Assembly: GCF_002843425.1 (NCBI RefSeq)
Contig: NZ_NKXO01000031.1
Coordinates: 1 to 42,810, forward strand
Source of the DNA: Raineya orbicola
GTDB lineage: Bacteria; Bacteroidota; Bacteroidia; Cytophagales; Thermonemataceae
DNA length: 42,810 nt
Direction of reading: 5' to 3'
The translations under genes and the position numbers were made by a program. Positions 12,228 to 42,641 of this stretch are shown here, in pieces. Position 1 is the first letter of the stretch. Every line of letters starts with the position of its first letter. Below the pieces are notes generated by a model, which was given only the letters and a program-made list of their open reading frames with translations, was not told where the DNA came from and searched no databases.

Positions 12228-13799
12228 ATGAATTTCATTCCCAGTATGCTATTAAAGCAACTCTACACACGTGGCAGTTTGCGTAACGCAAGCGATGGAG
12301 TTGTATTTTCGGTGAAAAATCGTTTGAGCGATGCCAAGCTCGTAGCCTTGAAAAAGGTTGAAATAGGCGACAAAAACATTCCTCTGAAAGATGTATTTGT
12401 AGATTTAGGTGATAATCGTATTCTTGCCGCCGAGCAAATTTCAGAAAGCAATCCCATTGAGTTTCCCCTGCGTAGAGCTATTAACGTTATTACCAAACAA
12501 GCTCCTTTACCCGAAGGGAAATACAAGGTGAAGATAGAATTTAAGGCGAGTCCTTTTGGTAACTTGGAAATTAAGGTAGAAGATGCTATTGCGAAAGAGG
12601 ATACGAACATAGCGAAAATTCCTCGCAATGATTTGGACGATTATTCAGAAGATGCTATCAAAGCAAGGCATAAGTTTATCAATGAATTTGTAAAAAAGAA
12701 TGTAAATCCTGATTTTGAGGGGGTAAATCACATTACCAAATATTCTTTTGACCCTCATATTACACAAGGTAACTGCGAGCATTTTGTAGGGGTTGCCCAA
12801 GTACCGATGGGTATTGCAGGACCTCTCAAAATCAATGGCGAACACGCCAAAGGTGAATTTCTGATACCACTGGCTACTGCAGAAGGAACACTCGTAGCCT
12901 CCTACAATCGTGGTATGAAGGTTATCAATTTGAGTGGCGGGGCAACTTGTACCGTCATTGGCGATGCTATGCAAAGGGCACCTGTTTTTGTGTTTGAAAA
13001 TGCTCGTGAGGCTCGTGAATTTGAAAAATGGGTACAAGCGAATTTCAAAAAAATCGCAGAGGAAGCCGAAGCTACTTCCAGTGTCGCTAAATTGCAATAC
13101 ATTGATAGCTATCTTTCCAATAAGTTTGCTTATTTGCGTTTCAATTACTCCACAGGTGATGCCGCAGGGCAAAATATGGTGGGACGTGCTACTTTTGCCG
13201 CTTGCAGTTGGATTTTAGATGCTTATCCACAAGGTAAAATCAAAAACTTTTACTTAGAGTCTAATTTTGCTACGGATAAAAAAGCATCGCAAATCAACGT
13301 GATGCGTACGCGTGGAAAGCGTGTAGTAGCAGAATGTACTATCAAGCGGGAAGTACTTACACAAATTATGCGTGTAGAACCCGAACAATTGGTGTATCAT
13401 TATCACGTTGCCAACGTGGGGGCAATTCTTTCAGGAGCTAATAATAACGGCTTACATTCTGCTAATGGTATTACGGCAATGTTTATTGCCACAGGGCAAG
13501 ATGTAGCCAATGTTTCAGAGTCTTCTGCGGGTATTATGTACTCCGAACTTACTCCCGAAGGCGATTTGTATATGAATATCACTATTCCTTCGCTGATTGT
13601 TGCTACTCACGGAGGAGGTATCAAACTGGCTACGCAAAATGAATGTTTGCGTATGCTTGGTTGCGTGGGGCGTGGCTCTGTGAATAAATTTGCTGAAATT
13701 GTAGCAGGAGTGGTGCTGGCAGGGGAAATTTCGTTGGCTTCTGCGATTTCTTCTTCCGATTGGGTTTCAAGCCACGAACAATACGGCAGAAATAGGTAG
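12228..13799 (+). CDS. Hydroxymethylglutaryl-CoA reductase
   Basis: 523 residues. It catalyses reduction of HMG-CoA to mevalonate, the committed step of the mevalonate route to isoprenoids. Signature blocks: CEHFVGVAQVPMGIAGPL, PLATAEGTLVASYNRG with the catalytic Glu (E219), MVGRATFAA, TRGKRVVAECTI, HVANVGAILSGANNNGLHSANG, and ATGQDVANVSESSAG with the catalytic Asp. GGGIKLATQNECLRMLG follows, and a C-terminal SSHEQYG supplies a candidate catalytic His. About 130 residues precede the catalytic core and do not look like the membrane domain of eukaryotic enzymes, since no helices are visible. A perfect hairpin follows at 13826-13860. Confidence 0.92.
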   Translation: MNFIPSMLLKQLYTRGSLRNASDGVVFSVKNRLSDAKLVALKKVEIGDKNIPLKDVFVDLGDNRILAAEQISESNPIEFPLRRAINVITKQAPLPEGKYKVKIEFKASPFGNLEIKVEDAIAKEDTNIAKIPRNDLDDYSEDAIKARHKFINEFVKKNVNPDFEGVNHITKYSFDPHITQGNCEHFVGVAQVPMGIAGPLKINGEHAKGEFLIPLATAEGTLVASYNRGMKVINLSGGATCTVIGDAMQRAPVFVFENAREAREFEKWVQANFKKIAEEAEATSSVAKLQYIDSYLSNKFAYLRFNYSTGDAAGQNMVGRATFAACSWILDAYPQGKIKNFYLESNFATDKKASQINVMRTRGKRVVAECTIKREVLTQIMRVEPEQLVYHYHVANVGAILSGANNNGLHSANGITAMFIATGQDVANVSESSAGIMYSELTPEGDLYMNITIPSLIVATHGGGIKLATQNECLRMLGCVGRGSVNKFAEIVAGVVLAGEISLASAISSSDWVSSHEQYGRNR

Positions 13800-13825: not shown

Positions 13826-13860
13826 AGGGCGAAGCCCTCGCTTTGCGAGGGCTTCGCCCT
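13826..13860. repeat. Perfect 16-bp inverted repeat with 3-base loop between convergent genes
   Basis: The left arm agggcgaagccctcgc (13826-13841), loop ttt, and right arm (13845-13860) pair perfectly. Each arm contains its own small palindrome (gggc-gaa-gccc). It lies between the stop codons of HMG-CoA reductase and hemF. No T-run follows on either strand, so it is not a textbook intrinsic terminator, although a stem this strong could still stop transcription from both sides. A REP-like element is the alternative. Confidence 0.75.
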
Positions 13861-13863
13861 GTA

Positions 13864-14799
13864 CTATAACCAATTTATTCCTTTTTTCAGCAGAGCAAGT
13901 GTTTCAGCTTCTTTGGAATGAGGTTCGGGAGTGAAGCAATAATGCCATTCGGCTTGTTTGGGCAAGCTCATCAAAATAGATTCTATTCTGCCATTAGTCT
14001 CCAAGCCAAATTTTGTACCTACATCATACACCAAGTTAAATTCAACGTAACGCCCTCTGCGGATAAGTTGCCATTGTTTTTCTTTTTCGCCAAATGGTAA
14101 ATTTTTATTTTTGGCAATCAAGTGGCTGTAAATAGGAGCAAAACTTTTACCGACTTCAAGCACAAAATCAAATAGTTTTTCTTTGCTAATTTCTTCATTT
14201 TCTTGCAATCTATCAAAGAAAATACCACCAATGCCACGTGTTTCGTTGCGGTGTTTGATGAAAAAATAATCATCTGCCCACTGCTTGAAACGAGGATAAA
14301 AATCGGGGTGATACTTATCGCAAACTTCTTTGAGTTTTTGATGAAAAAAGCGAGCATCATCTTTATCAATATAATGTGGCGTAAGGTCAATGCCGCCACC
14401 AAACCAATAAATGAGCTTGTTGTCGGCGGTCTGTACTTCAAAATAACGCACATTCATATGAATAATAGGCACCATAGGGCTTTCGGGGTGCATTACAATG
14501 GAAACCCCTGTGGCAAGAAATTCACCTTCGGGCATTTGCAATTTGCTTGCCATTTGCGGAGTAGGTGTGCCAAATACTTTGGAAAAATTTACCCCTGCTT
14601 TTTCCAAAACATTTCCATTTTGTAAAATTCGTGTCAATCCGCCACCGCCTTCGGCTCTTTGCCATTCATCTTTGGAAAAAATCCCTTTGCCATCAGCTTT
14701 TTCTATGGCAGAACAAATCTCGCTTTGCAACTGCTGAAAGGCAGTTACTACTTCATCTTGAAAGGTTTTATTTTGTGAAGATACCATAAAGAATTTCAT
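13864..14799 (-). CDS. hemF: Oxygen-dependent coproporphyrinogen III oxidase
   Basis: 311 residues, the usual length. HemF decarboxylates coproporphyrinogen III to protoporphyrinogen IX using O2 in haem synthesis. Diagnostic blocks are WQRAEGGGGLTRIL, GVNFSKVFG, WFGGGIDLTPHYI, the stretch after KHRNETRGIGGIFFD, and RYVEFNLVYDVGTKFGLETN (split here for length), followed by the terminal PEPHSKEAE. Presence of HemF implies growth with oxygen. The gene is the last of a minus-strand group containing ccmE and a ccmD-like gene, which ties haem supply to cytochrome c maturation. A 66-base gap separates it from the upstream methyltransferase. Confidence 0.95.
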   Translation of the reverse strand: MKFFMVSSQNKTFQDEVVTAFQQLQSEICSAIEKADGKGIFSKDEWQRAEGGGGLTRILQNGNVLEKAGVNFSKVFGTPTPQMASKLQMPEGEFLATGVSIVMHPESPMVPIIHMNVRYFEVQTADNKLIYWFGGGIDLTPHYIDKDDARFFHQKLKEVCDKYHPDFYPRFKQWADDYFFIKHRNETRGIGGIFFDRLQENEEISKEKLFDFVLEVGKSFAPIYSHLIAKNKNLPFGEKEKQWQLIRRGRYVEFNLVYDVGTKFGLETNGRIESILMSLPKQAEWHYCFTPEPHSKEAETLALLKKGINWL

Positions 14800-34172: not shown

Positions 34173-34970
34173 ATGCGTTTTAAGTTGATACTTGCCGTAA
34201 ATACTCACCGAAATCCTATTCTGCCTTTCAATTACCAATACGAGCTTTCCAGTTGGATTTACAAAATCATCAGCAGAGCCGATGAGGAATATGCTTATTT
34301 TTTACATCAGAATGGCTACGAGAGCAATCAAAAGAGTTTTAAGTTTTTTTGTTTTTCTAATTTGCTCATTCCGAAGTATAAAATAGTAAAAGATATGGGT
34401 TTTCTGTTGCAAAGTCATCAGATAGCTTTGTACATTAGCTTTTATGTAGATAAAGCCGCTGAGAAATTTGTGGCAGGTTTGTTTCAAAACCAACGAGGTA
34501 GTATCGGAATACAAGAGACACAAATAGATTTCCGTGTTGAGCGGGTAGAAACTGCTCCTATACGTCTGAGCAAAGAAATCGTACATTTGCAAACAATTTC
34601 TCCTTTGGTGGTTGCTCAAAAAGATAAGCAAGACAAGAAAAAATATTTAAGCCCTTTGGATAGTGGTTTCAAGGAGTTATTCATCAATAATTTGTTGGAA
34701 AAGTACAAAGCCAGCGGAAAAGAGTTATCCCCTGCGTGGCAGAATTATCCTTTTAGTTTAGAAGTTGAGGAAAAGAGCATCAGAAGCAAACTGATTACCA
34801 TAAAACAAAATACTTCTAATCCTATTCAAGTGAAAGGTTATTTATTTGATTTCATACTACAAGCCCCCAAAGAGTTATTGGAAGTAGGTCTTGCGGCAGG
34901 TTTTGGCAATGAGAACGCCCAAGGGTTTGGAATGTGTGATGTACTTGAAAATTTGAACTCAAAAAACTAA
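34173..34970 (+). CDS. cas6: CRISPR pre-crRNA endoribonuclease Cas6
   Basis: 265 residues. N-terminal ferredoxin-like fold ([15 protein letters not shown]), with YFLHQNGY providing the likely catalytic His (H45), and the C-terminal glycine-rich loop [16 protein letters not shown] that defines Cas6. It should cut the array transcript within each repeat, leaving the AUUGAAAU tag on both type I and type III crRNAs, as there is only one cas6. It begins the plus-strand operon, 2 bases before the WYL regulator. Confidence 0.92.
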
Positions 34971-35872: not shown

Positions 35873-35896
35873 CAAAATTTGGAAAAATTGAAACTT

Positions 35897-38422
35897 ATGT
35901 TTGCATATGTAAAAATGATAACAAAACCTATGGAAATCTGTAATTATTACATAAAAAAACTTGGCTATCAGGCTTATTGTTATCAAATGAAGGTTGCCGA
36001 AATCTTACTTAGTGGTAAAAATGTTATTCTTGTCGTCCCCACTGGTGCGGGTAAAACTTGGGCTTCGATAATACCATTTCTGTATGCCAGAGAAAATGGA
36101 ATAGCTGATTTTCCTCAAAAAATGATTTACAGCTTACCATTACGAACACTTACAAACTCTATTTATCAAGATGTACATAAAATTACTGATGCAAGCATTC
36201 AAACTGGTGAATATGGCGAAGATAAGTTTTTTGAAAAAGATATTATTTTTTCTACCATAGACCAAACGCTAAGTAACTTTCTTTGTTTCCCTTTGCCATT
36301 ATCTCACCGACAAGCTAATATCAATGCAGGGGCACTGATTGGTAGCTATTTGGTTTTCGATGAGTTTCACTTGCTTGAACCATCACTATCGATGGGCACA
36401 ACATTGGGGATGTTACGACTTTTAGGCGATTTGAGCAGGTGTTGTATTATGACGGCTACTTTGAGCAGTTCATTTGCTGTGATGCTCAAAGAAAATTTAC
36501 CTAATTATGAAATCATCACGCTTGATGATTTCCCTGAGGACAAACAAAAAATCAAATCACTTTTGCCTAATAAAGATAAAAAGCAGATTAAGGTACTTGA
36601 TAATACTATTTCAGCACAAGCTGTTATAGAACATCATCAAAATAAAACGATTGTGATATGTAATAGGGTAGAAAACGCTCAAAGATTATATCAAGAACTT
36701 CTAACTAAAATTAAAACTCTTCAAGGGTTTCAAGCCCTTGAAGAGTTAAAGGCGGAGAACATCATTTGCCTGCACTCTCGCTTTTTTGACAGCGACCGAA
36801 AAGCCAAAGAAAATCGCCTGAAAGCACTTTTTGGGAAAAATGCCGACCCCAACGAAAACGCTATTCTAATTTCTACCCAAGTAATTGAGGCAGGTATGGA
36901 TATTTCCTGCTCGGTAATGCACACTGAAATATCACCTGTCAACTCATTTTTGCAAAGAGCAGGTCGCTGTGCAAGATTTGAAAACGAAACAGGCGAAATT
37001 TTTATCTATGATATTTTAGAAATTGAAGAACGAGAAAAAATAACACTTGAAGCAAACAATGATGATGATAAAAAAGAAATCAGGGCAATCAACAACAAGT
37101 TTTTGCCTTATCAAAAAGAGGTGGTTGAAAAATCATTCACAGAGCTAAAAAAATACCAAACATTAGATGGGGATATTCCTAAGCAGTTGGTCGAAAGTGT
37201 ATTGACTGAATTTGAAAATCAAAATATCCAAGAGCTGAAAGACAGCAATTTCAATTACGCTAAAATTTTGGAGTCTTGGCGGGATTGTCAGAAAAATAAC
37301 TATCGCAATACTATCAGAGATATTCAGAGCGTGGAAGTAGTATTGATTACGGAAAATCAGAAGGAAGAAGTAGCCAAGTTTCCATATCGCTATCAGTCGG
37401 TGGGTATGTATAAATGGAGTTTGGTGAGTTGGCTTAATAAAATTGCAAGAGGTGAAGGAGCAAAGGTTTATGATAGTGAAGAAGACACTTTAGTATGGCA
37501 GTTAGTAGAAAACAACGTAATTGATGGCTTTGGTGAAAACGATGAAGATGTGAAATACAAACTAGAGAATATTACAGACTTTTTACAATTACCTGCACAG
37601 GTCTATGTAAATGCCGATTTTTTCGGTTATCACGAGGATATAGGTTTCAATTGGCAGTTTGCAGAAACGTTTGGTACCATATCGCCCACAAGAGAATATA
37701 AAGACAAAAAAGAGGATTTTAAGCCTTTGACCAAAGACACCTTTTACCAGCACAATATGGGTTTGATACGCTGTTTTGAGCGGGAGTTTTTACCAAAACT
37801 CGATTTTGCATTTATACAACTTGCTAAAAGAATAGGAAAGTCGGAATGGACAAAAACGGAATTCGAGCAACTTATCAAACTAATGATTATCCTGCACGAC
37901 TACGGCAAGCTTAACGAAAAATGGCAAAAGCCTATGCGTTGCTACCAAGCCAAAAAAGAAGGCAAAGACCCAAAAGACTTCAAAGAAATTTTAGCCCATA
38001 CCGATTATGATAGGAATAACCCGACTGATTTGGCTTTGGAGCAAGAATGCAAACTCTATGAACGGGGCGGACACGCAGGAGTGGGGGCTTTTGTGGCAGA
38101 AACTGTGATTGAAGAATATTTTGAAAGTGAAGACTTGGCTTATGCTGTATCAATGGCAATCGCAAGGCATCATAGTCCTTTATCTGACTCTTATTCAAAG
38201 TTTAGTATTTCAGATAGTAGCTATAAAGCTATGCAAAGACTTTTAGACGAATTTGGATATGATGTTGAACTTTCCAAAGAAGAAGACTTTGAGGGCAAGA
38301 TGAATTTGAATGGGTTGGAGACAGACGAGCAAACCATAATGTATTTATTCTTGGTTCGCCTGTTAAGGCTATGCGACCAAAAAGCCACTGAAAATTTATC
38401 CGATTTTTTTACAGAAAACTAA
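35897..38422 (+). CDS. cas3: Type I Cas3 with helicase first and HD nuclease at the C-terminus
   Basis: 841 residues from the ATG at 35897; ATGs at 35915 and 35930 and a TTG at 35879 are alternatives. SF2 helicase motifs: PTGAGKT (48-54), DEFH (155-158), TATLSS, STQVIEAGMDIS and QRAGRCARF. The HD nuclease comes after the helicase: LHDYGKLNEKW (H667, D668), GGHAGVGAFVAE and AIARHHSPLS. Most Cas3 proteins carry HD at the N-terminus, so the order is reversed. Within the second RecA domain an in-frame palindrome (36715-36747) encodes TLQGFQALEEL. Cas3 unwinds and degrades DNA recruited by Cascade. Next is cas8, 10 bases away. Confidence 0.92.
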   Translation: MFAYVKMITKPMEICNYYIKKLGYQAYCYQMKVAEILLSGKNVILVVPTGAGKTWASIIPFLYARENGIADFPQKMIYSLPLRTLTNSIYQDVHKITDASIQTGEYGEDKFFEKDIIFSTIDQTLSNFLCFPLPLSHRQANINAGALIGSYLVFDEFHLLEPSLSMGTTLGMLRLLGDLSRCCIMTATLSSSFAVMLKENLPNYEIITLDDFPEDKQKIKSLLPNKDKKQIKVLDNTISAQAVIEHHQNKTIVICNRVENAQRLYQELLTKIKTLQGFQALEELKAENIICLHSRFFDSDRKAKENRLKALFGKNADPNENAILISTQVIEAGMDISCSVMHTEISPVNSFLQRAGRCARFENETGEIFIYDILEIEEREKITLEANNDDDKKEIRAINNKFLPYQKEVVEKSFTELKKYQTLDGDIPKQLVESVLTEFENQNIQELKDSNFNYAKILESWRDCQKNNYRNTIRDIQSVEVVLITENQKEEVAKFPYRYQSVGMYKWSLVSWLNKIARGEGAKVYDSEEDTLVWQLVENNVIDGFGENDEDVKYKLENITDFLQLPAQVYVNADFFGYHEDIGFNWQFAETFGTISPTREYKDKKEDFKPLTKDTFYQHNMGLIRCFEREFLPKLDFAFIQLAKRIGKSEWTKTEFEQLIKLMIILHDYGKLNEKWQKPMRCYQAKKEGKDPKDFKEILAHTDYDRNNPTDLALEQECKLYERGGHAGVGAFVAETVIEEYFESEDLAYAVSMAIARHHSPLSDSYSKFSISDSSYKAMQRLLDEFGYDVELSKEEDFEGKMNLNGLETDEQTIMYLFLVRLLRLCDQKATENLSDFFTEN
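36715..36747. repeat. Palindromic element inside cas3
   Basis: Perfect 13-bp arms aactcttcaaggg / cccttgaagagtt with a 7-base loop (tttcaag). It is translated in frame as TLQGFQALEEL within a surface loop between helicase motif IV and LHSRF. Its design matches the palindrome inside the RAYT gene, which is read as LTGFQNLSG. Confidence 0.75.
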
Positions 38423-38432
38423 TTCAACCCTT

Positions 38433-40187
38433 ATGGAGCAACCAAGAGAATACAAAGAGTTTTTCATAGATAAGAACTCTAATACCTATGCCGAAACTTT
38501 GGAGGCTTACGGTTTGGCAAATCTGATTGATGAGATTTTGTTACGAAGTAATGCCGGCAACCGAAAGGTAGAAATATTTGATAAGGGTCTATATTATCAA
38601 ATTAAACCCAGCCAAAGCATCACTGAGGAAATGCTTTTAAAATTGAGTTATTTCCAAGTCATTAAATTCCTGAAAAAGGAAGCAAATACCCAAGTACCCA
38701 ATGATATTGGAAATAACTTTTACGATTATCCTAACCAGAAGAAAGAATTTGACGAAATAAAAAAAAGAAAAAATGAAATTAGTACGGATAAAAATTTGAG
38801 TGCTGAAGAGAAAAAGGAAAAACTTCGGACATTACAAAATCAGTTTGAAAGTGAGTTTGGAAAGAAGTTAGATGAGGCTTTTGATGTATATAAAAATATG
38901 GTGGGTAATCCCTACACGGGATACGTAAAAGCTCATTCTATACTGCATAATAATCAAAAGCAATTTTCGAAACTATTAAATGAAATCTTAACCTTTTACT
39001 CAACGATACCGAATGTCGTTCAAAAAATCAATAGAGGGTTCAAAATTGATGAAAAGCTCACAGCACAACAACTTTACTCACCTAATCAGGGAAAAGGGCT
39101 TAACCAATATAAGGCTAATAATGCCAATATGACCAATTTAGATAGTTATTGGGTGCAGGAACTAATGAAAATATCCGGTGCTTTACAAATGATGATTTGC
39201 CAATATGTGAAAGTGGGGAGTAGCTATGACCTAAAAATTTTTGTGCCTGAGTATAAACACATTTTGTGGAGTAAAGCCAAAGAGCTAATGTTAGAATTTA
39301 AACGACACTTAAAGAGTGTATCACCTGTAAAATTAGATATTTTGAACATACTCAATTTCTCAGTCAATTTTATTCAGCGAAGTGAGGAGTTTACAGGAAA
39401 ATTGAAAAATACCATTAATGGAATTCATTCAGTTTACCAAAAAGATTTAGGGCAAAACAAGGCTGTTGCGAATATTGCCTTTTTGGAAGTTCCTGAATTT
39501 ATTGAAATCAATGACCGAAAATCCGCAAATGAATGGATAGAAATCCTTAACTCTCAAAAAAGTATTATTAGTTCAATTAAAGAACAAGGCGATGCTATAC
39601 AAGGCTTATTAGCTTATCGCAATTTTTTAAGCGGTGGTGATTTGCAAAGCTTTTTCAAGTTCTGTAATTGGTATTCGGTCTATCTGATGCAAGCACTGGA
39701 TAAAGACCAGTACTATATCAAACCCTTCAAAATAGAAACTTTAAATCTTTTTTATATGAATATGGATAATCAAAGTTTAAACTTATGCGAGATAATCGCT
39801 AACAAAGGTTTTGAGGCAGTAGCCCAAGCTATTCGCAAAAGTACAGTCAGCTTGCAGTACACCCCCAAAGATACTCGCAAATTTGAAATCCGCTATGGAT
39901 TAGCCCAAGAATTGCAAAACAAATCAAAATCAAAATTGGATTTGGCGACCTTCATTGGGGAGTTCATTGCTACGTATAATGCTGAAACCGCCAAAGTTGT
40001 AGAAAAGAATGGCGGAAAATCTTTCCGTGCAAACGTAAAAGACGAAGAATTGAAGGAGTTCTTCTGCTTATTAGACAAACATCCTTCTCGCCTTATAGGA
40101 GCTTTACTTGCTTCTTATGGCTTTGCCCTTAAAGCTAAAGAAGTGAAAGAGGAAGAAACAGAAGACTTAACCGAAGAAAACGAATAA
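38433..40187 (+). CDS. Type I-B-like Cascade large subunit Cas8
   Basis: 584 residues. Assigned mainly by position between cas3 and the cas7-cas5 pair; the start YKEFFIDKNSNTYAETLEAYGLANLIDEIL (split: YKEFFIDKNSNTYAET) and length fit the divergent Cas8 group seen with DevR/Cst2-type Cas7 (Cst1/Cas8a1-MYXAN-like). Cas8 recognises the PAM and opens the DNA duplex. A charged helical stretch (about 100-150, Lys/Glu rich) and an acidic tail (KEEETEDLTEENE) are visible. The subtype label (I-B versus a MYXAN-type I-A/B) is uncertain. Confidence 0.75.
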   Translation: MEQPREYKEFFIDKNSNTYAETLEAYGLANLIDEILLRSNAGNRKVEIFDKGLYYQIKPSQSITEEMLLKLSYFQVIKFLKKEANTQVPNDIGNNFYDYPNQKKEFDEIKKRKNEISTDKNLSAEEKKEKLRTLQNQFESEFGKKLDEAFDVYKNMVGNPYTGYVKAHSILHNNQKQFSKLLNEILTFYSTIPNVVQKINRGFKIDEKLTAQQLYSPNQGKGLNQYKANNANMTNLDSYWVQELMKISGALQMMICQYVKVGSSYDLKIFVPEYKHILWSKAKELMLEFKRHLKSVSPVKLDILNILNFSVNFIQRSEEFTGKLKNTINGIHSVYQKDLGQNKAVANIAFLEVPEFIEINDRKSANEWIEILNSQKSIISSIKEQGDAIQGLLAYRNFLSGGDLQSFFKFCNWYSVYLMQALDKDQYYIKPFKIETLNLFYMNMDNQSLNLCEIIANKGFEAVAQAIRKSTVSLQYTPKDTRKFEIRYGLAQELQNKSKSKLDLATFIGEFIATYNAETAKVVEKNGGKSFRANVKDEELKEFFCLLDKHPSRLIGALLASYGFALKAKEVKEEETEDLTEENE

Positions 40188-40214: not shown

Positions 40215-41180
40215 ATGTCAGAAAATAAAAAAATCATCGCATCTCTTTCCATCAGTGGAGAGATTACACTCAACTTGCACTCTTTGAACAACGAAGGTGG
40301 CGAAGGTAACCAAATCATTACCCGTCAATTGACTATCATTGATAAAAATGGTGATGAACATACCGTTAACGGAATTAGTGGGGATATGTTTAAGCATATC
40401 CACGTGGGGCATTTGATTAACCTGGCAAAAGAGCAAAACTTAGATTTATGCTCAAATTGCCAAATTTTCAATCCCAATCGTCTTTCAAGTGGAGAGGATT
40501 TAGGAAATCTTAATTTGGGAGATGCTTCTGATAAGGATATTGTAGATGCTATTATCAAACTTTGCGTGGTGGATGATACTCACGGAGTTTTAGTTACTAA
40601 AATCGGCAATAAAAACAAAAATGTTCCCCGTAAATCGGTGGTTGAGTTTGCTTGGACAGTGGGTATTCCTCATAAAAACAATACGGAAAGCTATGTGCAT
40701 ACCAAATTGGTATCAGATGCAGGTGGTAAAAAGACTGACGGAGCCAATGAAGGGCAAAATATCTTCCATCGCCCTGCCAATCACGGGGTATATGCTTTTG
40801 TGTGCCATATAGATGTGTATAGAATTGGCTTCAACGATATTTCAAGGACTTATCCGGAACTTGAAAAACGTCAAGCAAGGTACAAGGCTCTGATTCAAGC
40901 CCTGCTTAGCTCATTTATCAACCCCAGAGGAGCAATGACCAGCACTCAAAAACCACACATTACTGATTTCAAAGGTGTAATAGCCATTTCTAATAAACTT
41001 ACACCTGCCCCTACCATTAGTGCCTTAAATGACGGTTATGTGGCTGAAATCAGGAAAATAGCTGAAAATATCAATAGGATAGAGCAAGATGCTATTTCGC
41101 TGGAAGAGTTTAACGGCTTGGGCGATTTATCCAAAATTTTAGCTGACCTAATGGATTACGAACCTTATAAAATTGGTTAG
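40215..41180 (+). CDS. cas7: Cascade backbone protein Cas7 (Cst2/DevR family)
   Basis: 321 residues. The N-terminus IASLSISGEITLNLHSLNNE, then VNGISGDMFKHIHVGHLINLA and CSNCQIFNPNRL, is the Cst2/DevR signature. Cas7 proteins line up along the crRNA in Cascade. It lies 27 bases after cas8 and 3 bases before cas5. It is probably the most strongly translated subunit. Confidence 0.9.
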   Translation: MSENKKIIASLSISGEITLNLHSLNNEGGEGNQIITRQLTIIDKNGDEHTVNGISGDMFKHIHVGHLINLAKEQNLDLCSNCQIFNPNRLSSGEDLGNLNLGDASDKDIVDAIIKLCVVDDTHGVLVTKIGNKNKNVPRKSVVEFAWTVGIPHKNNTESYVHTKLVSDAGGKKTDGANEGQNIFHRPANHGVYAFVCHIDVYRIGFNDISRTYPELEKRQARYKALIQALLSSFINPRGAMTSTQKPHITDFKGVIAISNKLTPAPTISALNDGYVAEIRKIAENINRIEQDAISLEEFNGLGDLSKILADLMDYEPYKIG

Positions 41181-41183
41181 AGT

Positions 41184-41933
41184 ATGGTACGATTTTCAGT
41201 TAAATATCTGCCTACTGCTTTATTTTCACTCAAAGATAGCAACGCTACCAATTCGGGGGCAAAGAGTTTGTTTTTGCCCTCGCCTTATAGCGTCAAAATG
41301 GCTTTGCTCAATCAAATTATTACGATTGAAGGAGTAGAAATATTTAATCCAAAAGAGGAGGAAACGACAAAAGGCAAAAAGAAAAAGCTACAAGAGTCAG
41401 AGATTTTTGAAGCGATTAGAGATGCTAAAATCAGCTTTTATTTACCTCAGGGTAGTAAATTTTGTGTGAATAACGCTTTTGTGAAAATCTTAAAGATTAA
41501 AGAGGATAAGAGTAGTAAAAAAGACAAAGAAGCGGGTAAGATATTTGAGCCGGGATTTCAAGAAACAATAAGTTTTAGAGAGTACATACAAATAACACAT
41601 CCTTTGGAAATAATTTTTGAGGTTTCGGACACTTCACAAGAAGTGTTTCTAAAGAACTATTTGCATAAAATCAACTACTTCGGCAAGCGAGGTTGTTTTT
41701 TTCAATTTTTAGAGTACAACGATAACCCACCAGAAGCCAATGTAGTTCCTTTTGATGTTAAAAAAGGGCTTTCGGGTATTTTGCAAAAGTATGATGATTT
41801 TGATGAGTTGGTAACTTTTGAGATGGTGAATAATTTCTCAGGTAAATCAACGAAAAGGAAAGAGGAGATTTGGGTCTTGCCTTTGAGGAGTAGAACTTCT
41901 TCCAAGTCTTATACAAGCTATGTATCAATCTAA
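41184..41933 (+). CDS. cas5: Cascade protein Cas5
   Basis: 249 residues. The start VRFSVKYLPTALFSLKDSNA is followed by FLPSPYSVKMALLNQII, and the later YFGKRGCFFQFLEY is a Cas5-type motif. Cas5 holds the crRNA 5' tag next to Cas8. Lysine-rich insertion at about 57-70. It is the last cas gene of the plus-strand operon and is followed at 41972 by a strong palindrome that may also end transcription. Confidence 0.88.
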   Translation: MVRFSVKYLPTALFSLKDSNATNSGAKSLFLPSPYSVKMALLNQIITIEGVEIFNPKEEETTKGKKKKLQESEIFEAIRDAKISFYLPQGSKFCVNNAFVKILKIKEDKSSKKDKEAGKIFEPGFQETISFREYIQITHPLEIIFEVSDTSQEVFLKNYLHKINYFGKRGCFFQFLEYNDNPPEANVVPFDVKKGLSGILQKYDDFDELVTFEMVNNFSGKSTKRKEEIWVLPLRSRTSSKSYTSYVSI

Positions 41934-41971: not shown

Positions 41972-42004
41972 ACACCTGACAGGTTTTCAAAACCTGTCAG
42001 GTGT
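41972..42004. repeat. REP-like palindrome upstream of the RAYT gene
   Basis: Two 16-bp perfect arms (left arm acacctgacaggtttt) around a central c at 41988, followed by aaaaaaac. The 29-base core is identical to the palindrome inside the RAYT gene at 42266-42298. It lies between cas5 and the RAYT start, 20 bases before the ATG. Confidence 0.85.
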
Positions 42005-42023: not shown

Positions 42024-42641
42024 ATGGCGACTACACCTCCTCCTCTTCTCCCCGAAACGGTCTATCACGTGTACAACCACGCCAACGGAAGCGAAAATCT
42101 CTTTCGCTGCGATGAAAACTACTATTATTTTCTACGCAAGTATGCTGAGTATATTTATCCTATTGCCGATACCTATGCTTACTGCCTAATGCCCAACCAT
42201 TTTCACATAATGATTAGAATAAGAAGCGAAGAGGAAATAGTAGCATTTTTGAAGGAAAGAAATATAGACCTGACAGGTTTTCAAAACCTGTCAGGTCTGA
42301 TTTCGCAACAGTTCAGCCATTTCTTCAACGCCTACACCAAAGCATACAATAAACTATATGAGCGAAGAGGCTCTTTATTTGAACGACCTTTCAAACGCAA
42401 AGCCATCACCGACGACCAATACTTCACCCAACTGATTGCTTATATCTACCTCAACCCTGTCAAACACGGCTTTTGCAAGGATTTGCTCGATTGGCAACAT
42501 AGTTCTATTCATAGTTATTTGTCCCAAAAGCCAAGCAAAATCAATAGAACCTATTTGGAGGAGTGGTTTGGAAATCGCGAACAAATTTTGAAGTTTCATC
42601 AGGAAATTTTTATGGAAAAATTTTTATTTGATGACCTCTGA
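42024..42641 (+). CDS. REP-associated tyrosine transposase (RAYT, Y1/HUH family)
   Basis: 205 residues. HUH motif HFH at 59-61 (CLMPNHFHIMIRI), and the likely nucleophile Tyr140 in LIAYIYLNPVKHG, the RAYT signature. RAYTs are domesticated IS200/IS605-like single-strand transposases thought to spread or process REP palindromes rather than move themselves. A palindrome lies 20 bases upstream, and a second with the same core is inside the gene (codons 82-92, LTGFQNLSG). The frame is intact, so the enzyme may be active. Confidence 0.9.
   Translation: MATTPPPLLPETVYHVYNHANGSENLFRCDENYYYFLRKYAEYIYPIADTYAYCLMPNHFHIMIRIRSEEEIVAFLKERNIDLTGFQNLSGLISQQFSHFFNAYTKAYNKLYERRGSLFERPFKRKAITDDQYFTQLIAYIYLNPVKHGFCKDLLDWQHSSIHSYLSQKPSKINRTYLEEWFGNREQILKFHQEIFMEKFLFDDL
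42266..42298. repeat. REP-like palindrome inside the RAYT reading frame
   Basis: Perfect 16-bp arms (agacctgacaggtttt and its complement) around c at 42282. The inner 29 bases are identical to those at 41974-42002. It is translated in frame as DLTGFQNLSGL between the HUH half and the Tyr helix. Confidence 0.85.

Follow-up and report, generated by a model that had tools for sequence, protein, structure and literature searches.

How does a palindromic DNA element come to be translated inside a CRISPR nuclease gene? The question is raised by the cas3 gene of Raineya orbicola, which lies on a stretch of 42,810 nucleotides (contig NZ_NKXO01000031.1, positions 1 to 42,810), here called the window. 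At 36715-36747 of the forward strand this gene contains a 33-nt palindrome, AACTCTTCAAGGG-TTTCAAG-CCCTTGAAGAGTT, with perfect arms of 13 bp. When a 1-nt centre is assumed, the arms extend to 16 nt and 15 of the 16 pairs are formed (94% complementary). The palindrome begins with the last base of codon 279 and runs to the second base of codon 290, and from the coordinates and the translation it supplies the peptide T280-L290, TLQGFQALEEL. The original prediction, made from the sequence alone, had described exactly this perfect 13-bp inverted repeat read in frame. It had also placed the peptide in a helicase surface loop. The AlphaFold model of Cas3 predicts a helix at residues 264-280, then a loop, then a strand at 295-298, with a mean confidence score (pLDDT) of 65 at residues 281-290 compared with 88 and 89 on the flanks. 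The model agrees with a loop, for which a surface position is a prediction. When aligned with the window Cas3, the Cas3 of PDB entry 7r2k is 7 residues shorter at this loop.

We consider it likely that selfish palindromes were repeatedly inserted or exchanged in this one flexible loop of the Cas3 helicase. What is established is that the elements belong to one family in sequence and structure, that they occupy the same site in six cas3 genes with several types of arms, and that they show no orthology signal. With a length of 33 nt and a stop-free phase, such a palindrome could be tolerated in coding sequence as 11 codons. The host site would be a length-tolerant loop in the second RecA domain, with the helix that follows the CNRVE motif on one side and the strand ICLHS on the other, and an 11-residue peptide in it is probably harmless. 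Palindromes with different arm types would have entered this loop, or replaced one another in it, several times in various Bacteroidota, and copies could decay or shrink after their arrival. The original prediction of a selfish palindrome surviving as a harmless peptide holds for the selfish appearance, the tolerant loop, the membership in a transposase-associated family and the differing arms in orthologs; that the peptide is neutral is something we infer.

The family in question is that of the palindromes associated with REP-associated tyrosine transposases (RAYT; REP, repetitive extragenic palindrome), HuH single-strand nucleases. The family form, drawn from 15 elements, is A..CCTnnnAGGTTTTnAAAACCTn'n'n'AGG..T, in which nnn is variable yet paired. 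Judged by its sequence, the cas3 palindrome appears to belong to these RAYT-associated elements, which are REPs if the term is taken broadly, and with 33 nt and 15 of 16 pairs it fits the 20-40 nt size of REPs. In a covariance-model search of the own genome it scored 46.8 bits (E 2.7e-11), the 15 training rows of the model including this very palindrome. The codon pattern CTn-nnn-GGn-TTT-CAA-nnC-CTn, proposed as common to the cas3 and RAYT elements, amounts to the family consensus read in one phase. The pattern GGNTTTCAAANCC has seven matches in the own genome, five of them without a palindrome.

The window itself contains a RAYT gene (42024-42641, forward strand). Its product matches NF047646 at 61.1 bits, under the cutoff of 80, and PDB 4er8 (TnpA_REP) with an E value of 2.2e-5; it has the motifs NHFH, WQ and YIYLNP, and no Pfam match at 0.001. 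The predicted element comparable to that of cas3 was found in this gene at 42266-42298 (+). It is a related, perfect 33-nt palindrome with 16-nt arms, read in frame as IDLTGFQNLSGL in the same codon phase as the cas3 palindrome. A second copy, absent from the original prediction, lies at 41972-42004 (+) between the cas5-like open reading frame (ORF) and the RAYT gene, ending 19 nt upstream of the RAYT start codon. The two have matching arms. Copies whose arms equal or nearly equal those of the in-ORF palindrome adjoin the RAYT gene in L101 (the window), L102, L104, L114 and L059, and the palindromes in this position have other arms in L105 and L116.

Across the RAYT loci of the host's order, in-ORF palindromes lie at one protein site, between the HuH strand and the helix with FSNLFNAYTKAFNK. 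A script count gave an in-ORF palindrome in 15 of 50 distinct RAYT ORFs, 11 of the 15 being in the phase that reads LxGFxxLxGL; one of the 15 (L124) is probably ordinary coding sequence, while the script overlooked known palindromes in L107, L109 and L119, and those in L106 and L111 were below its threshold. Differently built palindromes were seen in the variable region of L111 (39 nt) and L119 (41 nt), and in the open frame of L126 towards its N terminus (47 nt). The 3' copy at L104 and the 5' copy at L114 have a central T that would create a stop codon if read in the coding phase, and the in-ORF copy has C or G; the remaining neighbour copies of these two loci have C and A there.

Outside such genes the family is multicopy and mostly intergenic in the genomes sampled. 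Since the covariance-model searches scored 150 candidates per genome, all copy numbers are lower bounds. In the own genome we found at least 16 places at E <= 1, three of them strong and all three in the window. The palindrome could be redrawn for 10 of the 13 weaker places, none of them in an ORF longer than 113 aa. A genome of the same genus (G070) gave at least 108 two-strand matches at E <= 0.5, and none of the palindromes of its 14 sampled stretches lay in an ORF of at least 150 aa. At E <= 0.001, two Runella genomes gave at least 102 and at least 54 matches, and Spirosoma at least 77. A census of 355 kb, drawn around model matches so that its density is not a genome average, placed 7 of 53 palindromes in ORFs of at least 150 aa. 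The RAYT genes of L181, L183 and L185 account for three of the seven, another is found where a 196-aa ORF begins, and the last three fall in a 209-aa ORF that overlaps the L185 RAYT on the opposite strand. The phase used is stop-free in 63 of 104 family members, compared with 58 and 55 for the other two phases.

A blastn search with the RAYT palindrome against plasmids and phages gave no matches. Among 18 viral loci, two carry a family palindrome in the middle of an ORF (L203:769-801 and L192:2902-2934). Both are the same phage gene, in which the palindrome has a Mu portal domain on one side and a Mu F-like domain on the other and is read in another phase as RPDRFSKPVRS.

We then turn to the same site in other cas3 genes. 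Scanning 84,980 species genomes solely by two short peptide patterns gave 156 stretches and 58 cas3 loci. A palindrome with a net score of at least 11 lies in the CNRVE-ICLHS loop of five of them, so that with the window there are six carriers; the other 53 loci have none at this score. The five are Flexithrix (L050), Sunxiuqinia (L054), a metagenome-assembled genome (MAG) of Rikenellaceae (L055), Mariniphaga (L056) and Maribellus (L065). Close homologues that encode the peptide without the palindrome were not found: among the 58 loci and the window, the peptide pattern and the palindrome occur together in these six. Two further loci have a loop that may hold a remnant, a decayed or shortened copy. 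The L058 protein is 92% identical to that of L056, with an element that is 18 nt shorter and reads LPGI, and the L059 loop reads LSGIKNLTGL, resembling a ruined copy; in both the cas3 frame is still open despite the lack of a full palindrome. The stretch of L099 stops within the loop. Order-wide searches for more cas3 genes were positive in 3 of 393 and 5 of 390 genomes, the own genome included each time, and added no new carriers: L206 came from the genome of L060, and the loops of L209 and L207 equal those of L044 and L061.

Besides the window, the cas3 tree included 29 of the 58 loci (L043-L071), giving 30 rows in total. L048 was omitted from alignment A3 as its chosen stretch contains a stop. 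L054, L055, L056, L058 and L065 form one clade with support 100/100, and the window, L050 and L059 fall within a 12-row group whose branching the tree leaves open. The loop measures 33-45 residues over the 30 rows, 33-43 in palindrome-free rows and 41-45 in carriers.

Inheritance of one element that is repaired where it lies should leave orthologous copies more alike than random family members. The mean identity of the six cas3 elements is 22.67/33, compared with 21.07 for random REPs (2926 pairs, 77 members outside cas3), and when six are drawn at random, 33% of the draws come up to the cas3 mean (P = 0.33). The cas3 elements thus show no orthology signal in a test that has n = 6. The arms nearest to those of the window element, 30/33 identical, belong to a palindrome from another genome, at its RAYT locus L104, while the best other cas3 element reaches 22/33. 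Five of the six elements have a closer palindrome elsewhere than in another cas3 (30 v 22, 31 v 28, 26 v 24, 32 v 28 and 33 v 32) and L065 ties at 32, in a comparison that sets 247 places at three shifts against five or six unshifted cas3 elements and so favours elsewhere. Since this pool is larger and shifted, the case for replacement rests on the comparison with random REPs and on that with cas3 windows. In the latter, the L056 and L065 elements are 32/33 identical, while 33-nt windows of cas3 average 23.6 and 0.9% of them reach 32. The L065 element is only 25/33 and 23/33 identical to those of its nearer kin L055 and L054, low values that are not extreme, being matched by 22.5% of cas3 windows for L055-L065 and 6.8% for L054-L065.

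Besides the small number of elements, the uneven pool and these unexceptional low values, several observations weigh against repeated insertion or exchange. Alignment with relatives had been proposed as a check for a clean insertion, and a clean 33-nt gain relative to the nearest cas3 genes is unsupported. The window loop of 45 residues exceeds by exactly 11 the 34 residues of more distant rows (L053, L057, L060, L063 and L066), and it is only 4 residues longer than in the nearest rows, those of Runella. The Runella genomes are rich in REPs and their cas3 has no palindrome. The cas3 arms were found nowhere else in the own genome at up to 3 mismatches. Most members lack the terminal tag by which the classical REP superfamilies are known: of 104 distinct contexts, 14 have GT[AG]G or its complement near a foot and 3 have CGTC, and by eye the tag is missing at all three window elements; membership of the GTAG and CGTC superfamilies was rejected for this reason. 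Movement itself was never observed. The 9.5-Mb Flexithrix genome (G194) gave no RAYT match with a six-row profile at E <= 1e-10 and no other copy at E <= 0.001 among the 150 of 8956 candidates scored, and the MAG of L055 has no RAYT match either. Since the Flexithrix cas3 copy is accompanied by no detected RAYT or other strong copy, its arrival along with the cas locus is suggested.

The link to the RAYT family points to the RAYT single-strand transposase, rather than recombination between palindromes, as the putative mover. The flanking sequence covered includes a RAYT in 5 of the 8 carrier or remnant loci (the window, L054, L056, L058 and L059) and in 1 of the 20 other counted loci of L043-L071 (L067), L069 and L070 being set aside. 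The Fisher p of 0.003 ignores kinship and unequal flank lengths, and the RAYT profile used had the RAYTs of L054, L056, L058 and L059 in its own training set. Beside the cas operon, the RAYT genes of L054 (988-1906) and L056 (15835-16898) are apparently split over two open frames.

Could a single ancient palindrome have stayed in place, with template switching during replication copying arm changes, so that the arms drift in concert and merely seem swapped? This process can make and mend hairpins (PMC8794818), and compensated arms would then need no selection. Among the six cas3 elements, paired changes occur at 7 of 15 pairs and 96.7% of cells are paired, although such changes are expected under replacement, template switching or selection alike. 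Moreover, by hand count, 10 residues separate the central F (I in L059) from IICLHS in all six carriers and L059, and Flexithrix keeps its palindrome without a detected RAYT or other copy. However, near identity to REPs elsewhere is not what the process predicts, and the L055 element agrees at 32/33 positions with a Maribellus palindrome that lies outside long ORFs. The elements of the sisters L055 and L065 differ by three adjacent changed pairs, those of L056 and L065 are nearly identical across a far more diverged gene, and the orthology signal is lacking. We therefore regard this explanation as quite unlikely.

Selection on the hairpin would be another way to keep it in cas3, either by slowing translation or as a RAYT-bound site that couples CRISPR expression to the transposase. 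The RNA hairpin is strong (-22.4 kcal/mol, z -5.37), the arms show compensated changes and RAYT genes are enriched in the flanks. Yet the enrichment counts related loci with unequal flanks, the palindrome is missing from 53 of the 58 related loci, and L058 and L059 keep an open cas3 frame without a full one, which makes such a function very improbable. That a useful peptide merely happens to have palindromic codons is hardly credible. The recurring peptide pattern speaks for it, but only one of 2000 synonymous reshuffles of cas3 reached the net score of 13, and the same palindromes mostly lie outside long ORFs where sampled. In 200 dinucleotide shuffles of the window, palindromes with a net score of at least 13 numbered six in total, 0.03 per window, compared with four observed, one of which (13826) is a hairpin unrelated to the REP family. 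These controls led us to reject a chance origin.

Related cases are on record. The in-frame palindrome in a RAYT gene is an already published feature. The available part of Quentin et al. 2018 (PMC6006769) describes in-frame REP insertions in the tnpA_REP (RAYT) genes that make up subclass 2.4, and the palindrome in the window RAYT gene would be the same feature. Of the subclass motifs (NH[IFV]H, WQ, YIxNNP), the window RAYT has NHFH, WQ and the inserted palindrome, with YIYLNP in place of YIxNNP. A double GT[AG]G foot marks one of the two REP types of that study; the window family mostly lacks it, and that part of the source does not mention cas3 as a host. The part of PMC3733652 available reports GTAG and CGTC REPs that lie inside other genes and are translated with them, many of these genes serving DNA repair, and different REPs at about the same recB site in two Xanthomonas species. 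This recB case is a precedent for recurrence at the cas3 loop, although its REPs belong to other superfamilies by their terminal tag, lie in other genes and are in more than half of the inserts dimers or groups. The same part of PMC3733652 indicates how the Rickettsia palindromic elements, to which the original prediction had likened the cas3 palindrome, resemble it in being read in frame in unrelated genes and differ in belonging to another lineage. Identity with them was rejected: our palindromes are tied to RAYT transposases, with the carrier Flexithrix (L050) and the Spirosoma L062 locus belonging to the host's order. The Rickettsia elements are also longer. At title and abstract level, and with subscription journals mostly uncovered, the literature on REP or RAYT with cas3, on in-frame or intragenic REPs and on Rickettsia palindromic elements does not name cas3 as a host. 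As far as these partial sources go, in-frame REPs in RAYT and other genes are known, and cas3 as a host, with clear recurrence at one site, is an addition.

The host gene belongs to a type I CRISPR operon at the end of the window, whose gene order suggests type I-B. It consists of cas6 (34173-34970; TIGR01877, PF01881), a WYL-domain ORF, cas3, a cas8-like ORF (38433-40187), cas7 of the DevR family (40215-41180; PF01905, TIGR01875) and a cas5-like ORF (41184-41933), followed by the RAYT gene; those given with coordinates are on the forward strand. The cas8-like and cas5-like ORFs, without a Pfam or NCBIfam match, are named by their position in the gene order only. The cas3 gene (35879-38422, +) encodes a helicase with a C-terminal HD domain. 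It matches TIGR01587 (173.6 bits, cutoff 102.45), TIGR01596, PF22590 and PF00270, and its top Foldseek matches are Cas3. Downstream of the Maribellus cas genes, L065:18300-22457 has repeated translated units (ISIPAWYDCE / FNSSLVRLR) and is probably a CRISPR array. The L049 contig, labelled as a Nanoarchaeota MAG, has a Bacteroidota-type cas3 with 59% identity, and its label is probably a binning error. Elsewhere in the window, a perfect hairpin unlike the REP family (13826-13860; 16-nt arms, 3-nt loop) lies between the convergent ORFs 12228-13799 (+) and 13864-14799 (-) and is perhaps a terminator shared by both.

The cas3 loop represents a natural replicate experiment, in which a single codon-level site shows several types of arms and, among close relatives, probable losses. 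The system would allow the gain route, insertion or exchange, and the role of RAYT to be tested directly, and it draws attention to a loop of Cas3 that is highly variable in length and sequence. It is conceivable, if rather unlikely, that RAYT and its palindromes are a lasting companion of this Bacteroidota type I-B CRISPR locus, with the transposase next to the cas genes and the cas3 loop as a true landing or exchange site. If so, these CRISPR loci would carry and renew a palindrome in their own nuclease, perhaps affecting cas3 expression.
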